Positions 34,139 through 37,002 of a stretch of 39,678 bases of DNA are shown in pieces. Numbering within the stretch: the first letter of the stretch is position 1; every line of letters starts with the position of its first letter. Source of the DNA: a bacterium (lineage in GTDB: Bacteria > Latescibacterota > Latescibacteria > Latescibacterales > Latescibacteraceae). The stretch covers positions 1-39,678 of the forward strand of contig JAJFUH010000013.1 in assembly GCA_021372535.1 (NCBI GenBank), in the 5' to 3' direction. The translations under genes were made by a program, and so were the position numbers. The notes under the pieces are model-generated. The model was not told the origin of the DNA and made no database searches. It saw nothing but the letters and a program-made list of their open reading frames with translations.

Positions 34139-35206
34139 ATGAAACCTCTCGGACTCGGAATAATCGGTCTCCATCACCAGCATCCCCGTTGGTACTATCC
34201 CCTGTGGGGCAGTCTTCCGGAATACCGGCCGGTTGCGGTAGCCGAGGAGGATAAAGCGTTCCTCCGGAGCGAGAACGAATTCTTCGGGCTCGAAACCCAC
34301 ACCGATTACCATGATCTGCTCGAACGCCGTGATGTGGATGCCGTGATCGTTTTTCTCCCGCACAGCCGTATGCCTCAGGCGGTCGCAGACGCAGCCGCCG
34401 CCGGAAAACATGTCATCGTGGAGAAACCCTGCGCCGCCGATGTCGCGGGCATCGAGAAGATTGCCGCAACCGCCCGTGAATTCCCGCACATAAAGATCAG
34501 CGCCCCCTACTGCTGGCGGACTCATCCGGTCAGCGGGCAGATTCGCTCCGCCATTAAGGACGGTCTGCTCGGCAGTATCGTTGCAATGGAGGGCAGGCTC
34601 AATGCCGGCGGCGCGCACCGTTATATCCGCGACAACACCGCCTGGGTGCTCGAATCGTCCGAGGGCGGCGGCCCCATGTGGAATCTCGGAGTGCACTGGA
34701 TCGATTATTTCCGGTGGATGACCGGGCAGGAAATCGTCGCGGTTTCGGGAATCGCCAACGGCCCCTTCGGCGAGCCGGAACGAACCATCGAGGACAATGC
34801 CCAGGCGCTCCTCAGGTTCGGGGATGGCGCTGTGGGAATCCTCGATGTCAGCTACAGCCTGCCGGATTCCTATCCGGGCAAGCGCGATATCTATGTGGCG
34901 TTTCGCGGAACGGAGGGCGATGCGGTCTGGGCGCCTGCATGGCAGGGTCATATGGACGAACTGCTCCTCGTGAGCAGGCATGAATCGGCGTCGGATGCGC
35001 AATGCCGCCGTCTGAAGATCGAGAGCAGGGACATTCCCGGTTACGGCGGTCAGATGGCATGGGAATGGCTCAGTGATTTTGCCGCCGCTGTCCGTGAAGA
35101 CCGTGCACCGCTCGTGAGCATCGATGACATGCGCGCCGCGGTATATGTCGCCGATGCGTTCTACCGTTCGCTTTCGAGCGGGAGGATGGAGAGGGTACAG
35201 GCATAA
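34139..35206 (+). CDS. Gfo/Idh/MocA-family oxidoreductase, cytoplasmic
   Basis: A 355-residue protein from ATG 34139 after AAGGGAT. The N-terminal Rossmann part starts LGLGIIGLHHQHPRWYY; the classical GxGxxG is altered to GIIGLHHQH. E95-K96-P97 (HVIVEKPCAAD) is the family's cofactor and substrate motif, and the C-terminal domain contains MWNLGVHWIDYFRWMTG. There is no signal peptide, unlike the Tat-exported relative at 37085. The family oxidises or reduces sugars and inositols with NAD(P); substrate unknown. The stop codon lies inside the start of the low-complexity repeat at 35197. Confidence 0.88.
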   Translation: MKPLGLGIIGLHHQHPRWYYPLWGSLPEYRPVAVAEEDKAFLRSENEFFGLETHTDYHDLLERRDVDAVIVFLPHSRMPQAVADAAAAGKHVIVEKPCAADVAGIEKIAATAREFPHIKISAPYCWRTHPVSGQIRSAIKDGLLGSIVAMEGRLNAGGAHRYIRDNTAWVLESSEGGGPMWNLGVHWIDYFRWMTGQEIVAVSGIANGPFGEPERTIEDNAQALLRFGDGAVGILDVSYSLPDSYPGKRDIYVAFRGTEGDAVWAPAWQGHMDELLLVSRHESASDAQCRRLKIESRDIPGYGGQMAWEWLSDFAAAVREDRAPLVSIDDMRAAVYVADAFYRSLSSGRMERVQA

Positions 35207-35310
35207 GGCATGAAAGACAGGCAGAAGGCAAAAAAGATAGGCACAAGGCACAAGGCATAAGGGAAAAGAGAAAGACAGTGGCAGAGGGACAGAGAGACTG
35301 AGGGGAAAAG
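35197..35310. repeat. low-complexity GGCATAAGGCACAAGG repeat, forward sense
   Basis: Units such as ACAGGCATAAGGCATGAAAG, AGGCAGAAGGC and AGGCACAAGGCACAAGGCAT recur with small changes, trailing off into purine-rich AGAGGGACAGAGAGAC. It begins within the last codons of the Gfo/Idh gene. The same family occurs at 35717-35755 (same sense) and at 35873-35940 and 36903-36999 (opposite sense). It opens the 752-bp gap 35207-35958, whose other contents are listed separately. Confidence 0.65.
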
Positions 35311-35367
35311 GATAAATATGATCGGCCTGATCCCTCGCATTAAACAGACTTATGATATGAAAAACTT

Positions 35368-35471
35368 TCTGAACCGCTGATTGACATGATTCAATGATTT
35401 TATGATTGAAATATGGAACATTCGCCATGTAATCATGGTAATCAGGTAATCAGCGTAATCAGCGGTTCAGA
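35368..35471. repeat. 104-bp element with perfect 15-bp terminal inverted repeats
   Basis: TCTGAACCGCTGATT (35368-35382) and AATCAGCGGTTCAGA (35457-35471) are exact reverse complements. The right half is a tandem of GTAATCA units starting at 35429, 35438, 35446 and 35455; the left half has related TGATT units. No reading frame is inside. Form and size suit a MITE-like or hairpin-forming repeat. Confidence 0.65.
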
Positions 35472-35594
35472 CATTTTAAGAAAGCTTCTGTTACACAAAG
35501 GAAATTCAGCGAATATTTAATCTCTTTTTTTCATTATAAACCTAACCCTCGCGCCCATTCATTCAAATGTTTCATAACCATCGACATTTTTCTC

Positions 35595-35623
35595 TTGACT
35601 TTTTATGTGTAATTGATTATATT
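35595..35623 (+). promoter_or_regulatory. sigma70-like promoter
   Basis: TTGACT (35595-35600), 17-nt spacer, TATATT (35618-35623). Start expected near 35630. It is followed almost at once by the hairpin plus T-run at 35641-35661, so its product may be a very short RNA unless the terminator is read through towards the helicase gene. Confidence 0.5.
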
Positions 35624-35640
35624 ACCTCTCGGTAATAAGT

Positions 35641-35661
35641 GAGCGACCACGCTCTTTTTTT
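35641..35661 (+). terminator. small intrinsic terminator
   Basis: GAGCG-ACCA-CGCTC stem-loop (5 bp) directly followed by seven T. The stem is short, so efficiency is uncertain. Confidence 0.45.
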
Positions 35662-35716
35662 ACTCTGATTAATAACGTTAGTTAGTTATCAGAATGTTTA
35701 ATACAAACACTTGTTG

Positions 35717-35755
35717 CAGGCATAAGGCACAAGGCATAAGGAAGAAGGGGGAAAA
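35717..35755. repeat. low-complexity GGCATAAGGCACAAGG repeat, short copy
   Basis: CAGGCATAAGGCACAAGGCA followed by TAAGGAAGAAGGGGG, same sense as 35197-35310. A weak CCGA/TCGG hairpin with an 8-nt loop (35786-35801) follows. Confidence 0.55.
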
Positions 35756-35872
35756 AGAGACAAATAGAGGCTTTGAGATGGTTTACCGATTAAAGATTCG
35801 GGGAAGACGGGTGGTGATGTGAAGGTCTTATCGCTCAGTATCTCAGTGCCTTCGTCCCTGTAATTACATTCA

Positions 35873-35940
35873 CTTATGCCTTATGCCTTGTGCCTGTCTT
35901 CATGCCTTTTGCCTGTCCTCATGCCTTGTGCCTGTTTTTA
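35873..35940. repeat. low-complexity GCCTTGTGCCTGTC repeat, opposite sense
   Basis: CTTATGCCTTATGCCTTGTG, CCTGTCTTCATGCCTTTTGC and CCTGTCCTCATGCCTTGTG run up to 18 bp before the helicase start. Together with 36903-36999 (same sense) it flanks the helicase gene as a direct repeat. Confidence 0.65.
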
Positions 35941-35958
35941 ACCAGAAAGGAGTTTCCC

Positions 35959-37002
35959 ATGAACACCGCTGTCCCTTCAACTCCGCTCACCTTCGCGCCG
36001 GATGCCGAGCGCGCGGTCATCGGCTGCATGCTCATCGAGCCCGAAACGGTCATCCGCCCGGTCATGGAAGCAGGCGGCGCCGAGCTGTTCTACAATCCCG
36101 TCTACAAGGTCATGTGCAGTGCGCTCGATCATCTCCACGAGCACGGAGAAGGAGTCGATCAGCTCACCGTGGCCGACCGTCTCAGGCGGAGCGGGAATCT
36201 GGACAATGTGGGCGGCGAGGCGTCCATAATCGGCATCATGAACGAGACCGGGAGCGCCGCCAATGTGGACTATCACATCGGGATTCTCCGTGAGAAGCTG
36301 CTGCTCCGGAAGCTCCTCACCGCGCTCAAGAAAGCAACGTACCGCTGCAACGAGGCTGCGGCCGCTCCCGAGGAGATTCTCGACAGCCTCAAATCCGAGC
36401 TCCACGAGCTCCGGGAGTTCGAGGACCGGAAGTGTCTGTCCCTCGCCGATCAGATAAGGGAATGGATTGATGTGACAAAAGGCGAATTTATTGTGACAGA
36501 TTGTTACAAAGACCTCCATTTGGTGACAAAACGTGACAAGGACAACTGCCGCAAGATTCTCAGCCGTCTCTGTGACGAGGGCATGATCGAACCGTGCGGA
36601 ATCCGTCGGGGCCACTTCCGCCGCATAGAGGGAGAGTGCGAGCGCATCGACTGGAAGAGCGCCGATGAGGATGTGCTCGATTTCCGCTGGCCCGGAGGAG
36701 TCGAGCGCTATGTGGAGGTCATGCCCGGCAATGTCGTGGTCATCGCCGGAGAGCCGAACGCCGGAAAGACCGCCTACCTCCTCAATGTAGTCCGCATGAA
36801 CATGGCCCGTCACGACATCCACTATTTCACCTCGGAAATGGGCGCCGCCGAATTCCGTAAACGGCTCTCGAACTTCAGCGATGTCGCCCTCGATGCCTCA
36901 GTCACTTGGCCACTGTCTTTATCTTTTCACTTCTGCCTTCTGCCTTGTGCCTTGTCCCTGTCTTTATGCCTTGTGCCTGTCTTTCATCTCTTTGTCCCTT
37001 GA
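35959..37002 (+). CDS. truncated chimeric DnaB-like helicase (DnaB-N + winged helix + Walker A)
   Basis: A 347-residue frame from ATG 35959, with AAAGGAG 6 nt upstream. Residues about 12-150 are a DnaB N-terminal domain (PDAERAVIGCMLIEPETVI; DQLTVADRLRRSGNLDNVGG). Residues about 162-225 (ADQIREWI through ILSRLCDEGMIEPCGIRRGH) look like a winged helix, not a normal DnaB part. A RecA-like ATPase then begins: NVVVIAGEPNAGKTAYLLN (Walker A, G264-T271) and HYFTSEMG. After about residue 313 the frame enters the low-complexity repeat and the last ~34 residues are repeat-encoded. Walker B, the arginine finger and the DNA loops are missing, so it cannot be a working replicative helicase. Probably a phage- or plasmid-derived remnant. 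Confidence 0.75.
   Translation: MNTAVPSTPLTFAPDAERAVIGCMLIEPETVIRPVMEAGGAELFYNPVYKVMCSALDHLHEHGEGVDQLTVADRLRRSGNLDNVGGEASIIGIMNETGSAANVDYHIGILREKLLLRKLLTALKKATYRCNEAAAAPEEILDSLKSELHELREFEDRKCLSLADQIREWIDVTKGEFIVTDCYKDLHLVTKRDKDNCRKILSRLCDEGMIEPCGIRRGHFRRIEGECERIDWKSADEDVLDFRWPGGVERYVEVMPGNVVVIAGEPNAGKTAYLLNVVRMNMARHDIHYFTSEMGAAEFRKRLSNFSDVALDASVTWPLSLSFHFCLLPCALSLSLCLVPVFHLFVP
36472..36538 (+). repeat. phased GTGACA array inside the helicase gene
   Basis: GTGACA at 36472, 36493, 36523 and 36533 plus GTTACA at 36503: spacings 21, 10, 20 and 10, all near whole turns of DNA. The 70-nt segment 36471-36540 has 27 G+C (39%), clearly below its flanks. It codes for the first part of the winged helix. 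Possibly iterons; two of five units are out of codon phase with the others. Confidence 0.4.
36903..36999. repeat. low-complexity GCCTTGTGCCTGTC repeat that ends the helicase frame
   Basis: CTTCTGCCTTCTGCCTTGTG, CCTTGTCCCTGTCTTTATGC and CTTGTGCCTGTCTTTCATC. Same sense as 35873-35940. It replaces the missing C-terminal coding part of the helicase and supplies its stop codon shortly after. Confidence 0.65.

Follow-up and report, generated by a model that had tools for sequence, protein, structure and literature searches.

A truncated DnaB-N, winged-helix and RecA gene in a Latescibacterota genome and its family of probable initiator-helicases with iterons in the winged-helix coding DNA

The window, the whole stretch of 39,678 nucleotides that was analysed (contig C13 of a Latescibacterota genome), contained near its end an open reading frame whose ATG at position 35959 was preceded by AGAAAGGAG (Table 1). 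The encoded protein started with a DnaB-N domain that scored above the Pfam cut-off, and its helical N-domain (residues 14–156) was modelled by AlphaFold2 with a pLDDT mostly >85. A preliminary description had called this a chromosomal-type DnaB N-domain. The domain assignment held, while "chromosomal-type" was only partly apt, since the nearest relative was the fused DnaB-N of G002 (47%) and the host's own DnaB came next (44%). A canonical winged helix (WH) was predicted further downstream (H162–172, E176–178, H179–185, H191–206, E210–212, E219–222; AlphaFold2). The WH was followed by a P-G element, GE(P/S)NAGKT and YF(T/S)SEMG, the signature of the WH-RecA family to which MetMV and IMG/VR phage proteins belong. 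The second family that had been noticed before is real. Only the start of the RecA fold was modelled, with a low-confidence tail from residue 312. The Pfam DnaB_C profile matched residues 255–303 with 6e-5 and 23 bits, below its cut-off of 27, and the NCBIfam DnaB models scored far under their cut-offs.

The DNA match of the window to the sister copies on contigs C38 and C235 ended abruptly after base 36895. The approximately 100 bases beyond were of another kind and ran into the GGCATAAGG/GCCTTGTGCC repeat family of this genome, and the last ~34 residues are therefore foreign to the family. This agrees with the earlier proposal of an ATPase cut by a repeat soon after Walker A. The complete RecA half, which extends to a C-terminal W, was lost in the window copy and present in C38 and C235; the intact C-terminal half that the preliminary description had suggested looking for thus exists in the same genome. 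Comparison of the window with C38 across the 54 codons leading up to the junction showed 10 synonymous and 0 amino-acid changes, indicating that selection acted on the motor until recently, when it was truncated ahead of Walker B. The window copy therefore cannot be an active helicase. It has neither the complete motifs nor the score above a curated cut-off expected of a DnaB motor.

Table 1. Features of the truncated gene and its upstream region (positions in the window).
Feature	Position	Strand	Basis
Leader common to five places in the genome (C13 = window, C209, C220, C201, C85)	35541..35958	+	alignment
Promoter-like TTGACT-17-TATATT in the leader, kept in other copies	35595..35623	+	consensus match only
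Intrinsic-terminator-like hairpin GAGCGACCACGCTC with T run, kept in aligned copies	35641..35661	+	alignment, fold
Upstream copies of the GGCATAAGG/GCCTTGTGCC intergenic repeat found genome-wide	35719..35939	.	repeat search
Truncated DnaB-N/winged helix/RecA gene, probable initiator-helicase	35959..37002	+	347 aa ORF; Pfam; AlphaFold2
DnaB-N domain, residues 14–112	35998..36294	+	PF00772, 4e-19; AlphaFold2
Winged helix, residues 162–222	36442..36624	+	AlphaFold2 of window protein; homologous WH in L053 model
Iteron 1, GTGACA	36472..36477	+	WH-coding DNA
Iteron 2, GTGACA, 21 bp after iteron 1	36493..36498	+	
Iteron 3, variant GTTACA, 10 bp on, other reading frame	36503..36508	+	
Iteron 4, GTGACA, 20 bp on	36523..36528	+	
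Iteron 5, GTGACA, 10 bp on, other reading frame	36533..36538	+	
Arg198 codon, for the recognition-helix-3 residue that tracks the iteron word in the family	36550..36552	+	column association; AlphaFold2
Walker A GEPNAGKT, residues 264–271	36748..36771	+	sequence
Non-homologous end: junction after 36895, repeat-derived tail	36896..37002	+	sister-copy alignment; tail pLDDT <50

The window copy was one among several broken copies in its genome. Contig C220 ended inside a copy without DnaB-N, in which the leader was joined straight to residue 144. C209 showed the same N-terminal loss; its WH contained a stop and was fused by an internal deletion to the final residues EWVRN. This copy (L133, 1–700), made up of the leader, the WH to about residue 217, the gene's final residues and the repeat, resembled a non-autonomous derivative of a larger element. 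C85 held a decayed piece and C201 the leader alone. C38 and C235 (L131 and L132) started within the motor and continued to its natural end. Their starts shared exactly 141 bp, which were identical, pointing to an assembler word-length (de Bruijn) break in a two-copy sequence and not to a biological end. The copies were surrounded by ordinary metabolic genes, and no obvious phage genes were seen beside them when the neighbours were inspected by eye.

The leader was 76–88% identical over most of its length to those of C209, C220 and part of C201, and the match to C85 was shorter. A search of six related genomes recovered none of it apart from the short repeat. The region of the terminator-like hairpin (35622–35665) folded with z = −3.3, and a scan against Rfam gave sub-threshold chance matches only. 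The intergenic repeat was heptad-like (GGCATAA/GGCACAA and complement) and occurred in the window at 35200–35262, 35719–35745, 35869–35939 and 36926–36985. It was present at dozens of sites in the genome, bordered most of the helicase fragments and had a few short matches in G002 too. Upstream of the leader, a long imperfect, REP-like hairpin (CTGAACCGCTGATT ... AATCAGCGGTTCAG, 35358–35480) was common to the window and the C209 copy.

Relatives were collected with an alignment of the WH-RecA half. Two scans yielded 39 viral and 18 genome loci, and a third yielded 80 viral loci on contigs that were partly the same as before; the viral scan with the single window protein as the query gave no match, whereas the alignment queries did. 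After removal of near-duplicates, and with the fragments of this genome included, the family had 106 members, of which 53 carried a Prim-Pol, 14 a DnaB-N domain (called by a local profile, weak or partial in four) and 39 neither. Several stand-alone members started a few dozen residues upstream of the IREW segment, near which the preliminary description had expected such proteins to begin. The same fusion, which it had proposed to search for elsewhere, was found as DnaB-N-WH-RecA in about a dozen further loci, of which several were intact and lay in phage contigs. Complete DnaB-N members of 414–451 aa were L053, L095, L141, L142, L157, L175 and L177, and L089 ran off the end of its contig. The AlphaFold2 model of L053 (mean pLDDT 82.6, first 40 residues poor) reproduced this order of WH and RecA, and DnaB gave its best matches in the PDB. 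A one-off chimera was ruled out by these intact homologues: full-length relatives have the WH between DnaB-N and RecA as a standard part, so the fusion is a standing architecture, of which the window holds a broken member, and not the odd join it had first been taken for.

The DnaB-N member L095 was preceded by an O-like initiator and followed by a large terminase, and that of G002 had an O-like gene upstream. In a DnaB-N tree, whose long branches meet and on which we did not rely, the domains of the window, G002, L089 and L053 grouped with the DnaB of this genome and G003 (100), and those of L141, L142, L175, L177 and L095 were placed elsewhere, which suggests that DnaB-N was captured more than once. 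In one phage member (L078:2429–4585) the Walker A loop was interrupted by an intein containing a homing endonuclease of the LAGLIDADG type (Pfam Hom_end, LAGLIDADG_3 and Hint_2).

In many members, one word of 6–8 bp per gene recurred 4–6 times within the WH-coding DNA, a feature absent from the preliminary description. The words included TGTCTACA, TGTCGTCA, TGTCCACA, TGTCATCA, CGACCACA, ACCTTACA, GCGTTACA, GGGGACA and others. In many Prim-Pol members the word of the gene also formed a further array in the linker, 70–100 codons upstream, and vir555, L086, L088, L090, L091, L067 and L049 had the linker array only. In L169 the two arrays face each other, the one in the linker (TGACGACA) being the reverse complement of the one in the WH (TGTCGTCA). 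Clear WH iterons were not seen in some members, including the DnaB-N members L141, L157, L175 and L089. A 6-mer present at least four times within 110 bp was found in 31 of 52 family ORFs (mean length 1474 bp) versus 5 of 98 flanking ORFs (mean length 1034 bp; p = 2e-13), one of the five being the O-like gene of L095. This gene (L095:569–1369) and a DnaD-like gene (L175:4519–5301, CGACCA six times), both initiator genes adjoining DnaB-N members, held in-gene repeats that by their sequence would be lambda-like embedded origins. As these repeats sit in the neighbouring initiator gene, the arrangement with iterons in the WH is not universal.

Successive copies were spaced 9–12, 20–22 or 30 bp apart without exception in the WH arrays with at least four exact copies, which places them near one face of the helix. 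Clusters of iterons in coding sequence with such helical phasing are what is expected of a lambda-O-type origin. In 35 of 38 genes the copies did not all share one reading frame, and TGTCTACA was read in three different frames in L054. At three aligned sites, base agreement within a gene was 4.9 of 9 compared with 3.0 between genes (z = 23.5). Third codon positions alone gave z = 19.3, and triples of columns with matching spacing elsewhere in the protein gave at most 3.3. The word thus changes in concert at all three sites. For the window gene by itself, synonymous shuffling reached four copies of GTGACA in 2 of 20,000 trials; the signal was modest when four copies of any 6-mer were counted (48 of 20,000).

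Among 274 alignment columns, the residue at the middle of recognition helix 3 (the helix-3 residue) tracked the iteron word best (z = 23, both sets), outranking even the columns encoded by the iterons themselves. In set 1, whose words were sorted into classes by eye while the protein was visible, S was found in 20 of 21 genes with a GTC word, R in all nine of the GTNAC type, N in three of four with GAC, and H or Y in both with CTTA. For set 2, the words were listed before the residues were printed, and 15 of 21 predictions were right, a result equalled in 0 of 200,000 permutations. By class, the predictions were correct for GTC in 6/6 (without L182, whose ATC word was predicted wrongly), for GTN in 5 or 6 of 7 depending on word strength, for CTT in 3/3 and for GAC in 1/5. 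The rule linking GAC to N was ruled out by the residues in set 2 (V, V, V, T, N). Independent pairs on a tree of the motor alone supported the association of the GTC word with S (7:0, p = 0.016) and of GTN with R (5:0, p = 0.06). L051 and L181 shared 91% of the amino acids in their motors and only 40% in the iteron parts of the WH, with TGTCTACA and S in the former versus TGACCACA and V in the latter. The window had R with GTGACA and C209, in the same genome, S with TCYAC; the words of C220 were mixed (GCAACA, GTAACA) and were assigned to the GTN class. Helix 3 and the iterons are only ~25 codons apart, and linkage within an exchanged block may inflate the association. The tracking of the word by the helix-3 residue is consistent with a DNA-binding domain that reads iterons, as in an initiator-helicase.

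We therefore hypothesize, on the basis of sequence comparison, that the family probably consists of initiator-helicases whose genes carry the putative origin read by their own WH. Intact relatives have DnaB-N (in most members Prim-Pol), then the WH, then the RecA-type motor, and the putative replication origin would be the 4–6 iterons inside the gene, in the WH-coding DNA. The WH would bind these iterons via helix 3 and set the hexameric motor at the origin, which would open and be unwound by the motor, with DnaB-N serving in hexamer assembly and in contact with a primase or loader. Because the reader and the sites it reads share the same stretch, an exchange of ~150 bp would change origin and specificity together and would thereby allow compatibility between related replicons. 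In the window only a remnant is left, a broken gene that probably encoded an initiator-helicase of a phage or mobile element, and the case for this rests mainly on its relatives. The preliminary description's suggestion of a decayed mobile-element helicase is supported. Its other suggestion, that the short protein might interfere with the host helicase or load it, was neither backed nor contradicted by the data.

The iterons might instead be a lambda-O-like origin bound by a separate initiator, such as a neighbouring O-like protein, the WH of the helicase merely aiding contact with DNA or protein. O-like or DnaD-like genes do adjoin the DnaB-N members G002, L095, L175 and L141, and in L095 and L175 it is the neighbouring genes that hold the repeats. 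We nevertheless consider this unlikely, since it is the helicase's own helix-3 residue that follows the word better than any other column, also in set 2, and since L095 and L175, which lack WH iterons, have T and not S or R at this residue. That the repeats reflect a protein motif (V/S/T-T at three turns), kept for structure and without a function in DNA, is hardly credible. The three sites do sit at equivalent turns of the WH, but the spacing of 10 bp, the multiple reading frames (35/38 genes, three frames for TGTCTACA in L054), the agreement of third positions (z = 19) and the concerted change of the residue pair itself all argue against it. The results on reading frames and third positions ruled out a motif purely at the protein level.

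Two further alternatives concern the window copy and not the family. An assembly mis-join at the genome-wide repeat might account for the missing C-terminal part, given that the assembler struggled with this gene, as the identical 141-bp prefix of C38 and C235 (de Bruijn break) indicates, and that the repeat was found at dozens of sites. This is improbable, as 10 or 11 sites in the 162 bp before the junction distinguished the window from both tails, no other contig continued the sequence of the window copy, and the junction lay ~30 bp ahead of the repeat array. Another explanation is that the copy has been kept, as a functional short protein (DnaB-N and WH, no motor) or as an origin decoy against an incoming element. 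In its favour are 313 codons without a stop, the intact iterons of the window, the retention of some iteron region in four of five leader copies while other parts were lost, and a study whose subject is the interference of ectopic origin copies with lambda (PMC4488673). We regard it as rather improbable, because the damage differs from copy to copy, the WH of C209 contains a stop and only the leader is left in C201. It is also quite doubtful that the broken copies as a group, with their shared leader and three different words (GTGACA, GCAACA/GTAACA, TCYAC), are kept as origin decoys or as motorless dominant-negative initiators that block related incoming elements.

The proposed initiator-helicases share features with several known replication systems. 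In lambda and Stx phages the origin lies inside the O initiator gene (PMC7466680), and here too a replication gene contains iterons in its open reading frame, where they contribute residues to its product. O has no motor, however, whereas the gene here encodes a helicase or a Prim-Pol-helicase and the iterons encode part of the WH by which they are apparently read. The initiator helicases SaPI Rep and SCCmec Cch2 recognise origin iterons (PMC7581432) and likewise combine a helicase with a DNA-binding domain for the iterons of its origin (putative in our case). Their binding domain is C-terminal, with the (putative) origin just downstream of the gene; by contrast, the present family has an internal WH, a DnaB/RecA-type motor and iterons within the gene. 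With DnaB (PF00772 and PF03796; TIGR00665, TIGR03600) the family has in common the DnaB-N domain and a RecA motor with Walker A, and solved DnaB structures matched the fold of intact L053 best, but it differs in the inserted WH and in a divergent, shorter RecA part that scores below curated cut-offs. The Prim-Pol-helicases of archaeal and bacterial viruses (MetMV AZF89917.1, vir555 DBA35047.1) have a WH-RecA half that is 30–39% identical to that of the window, with iterons, and a Prim-Pol where the window has DnaB-N. We found no description in the open-licence literature of a DnaB-like motor with iterons in the coding DNA of its own reader, which is weak evidence of novelty.

If the proposed reading is correct, a large and so far unnamed family of phage replication proteins holds its origin in the segment encoding the origin-reading domain, and a single short exchange would alter lock and key together. 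The helix-3 residue and the iteron word would then form a readable specificity rule, and origins could be placed in many uncultured phages from sequence alone. The contribution of the window is a case of several words within one genome. The family would also make it possible to test directly how replicons diversify so that several can share a cell.
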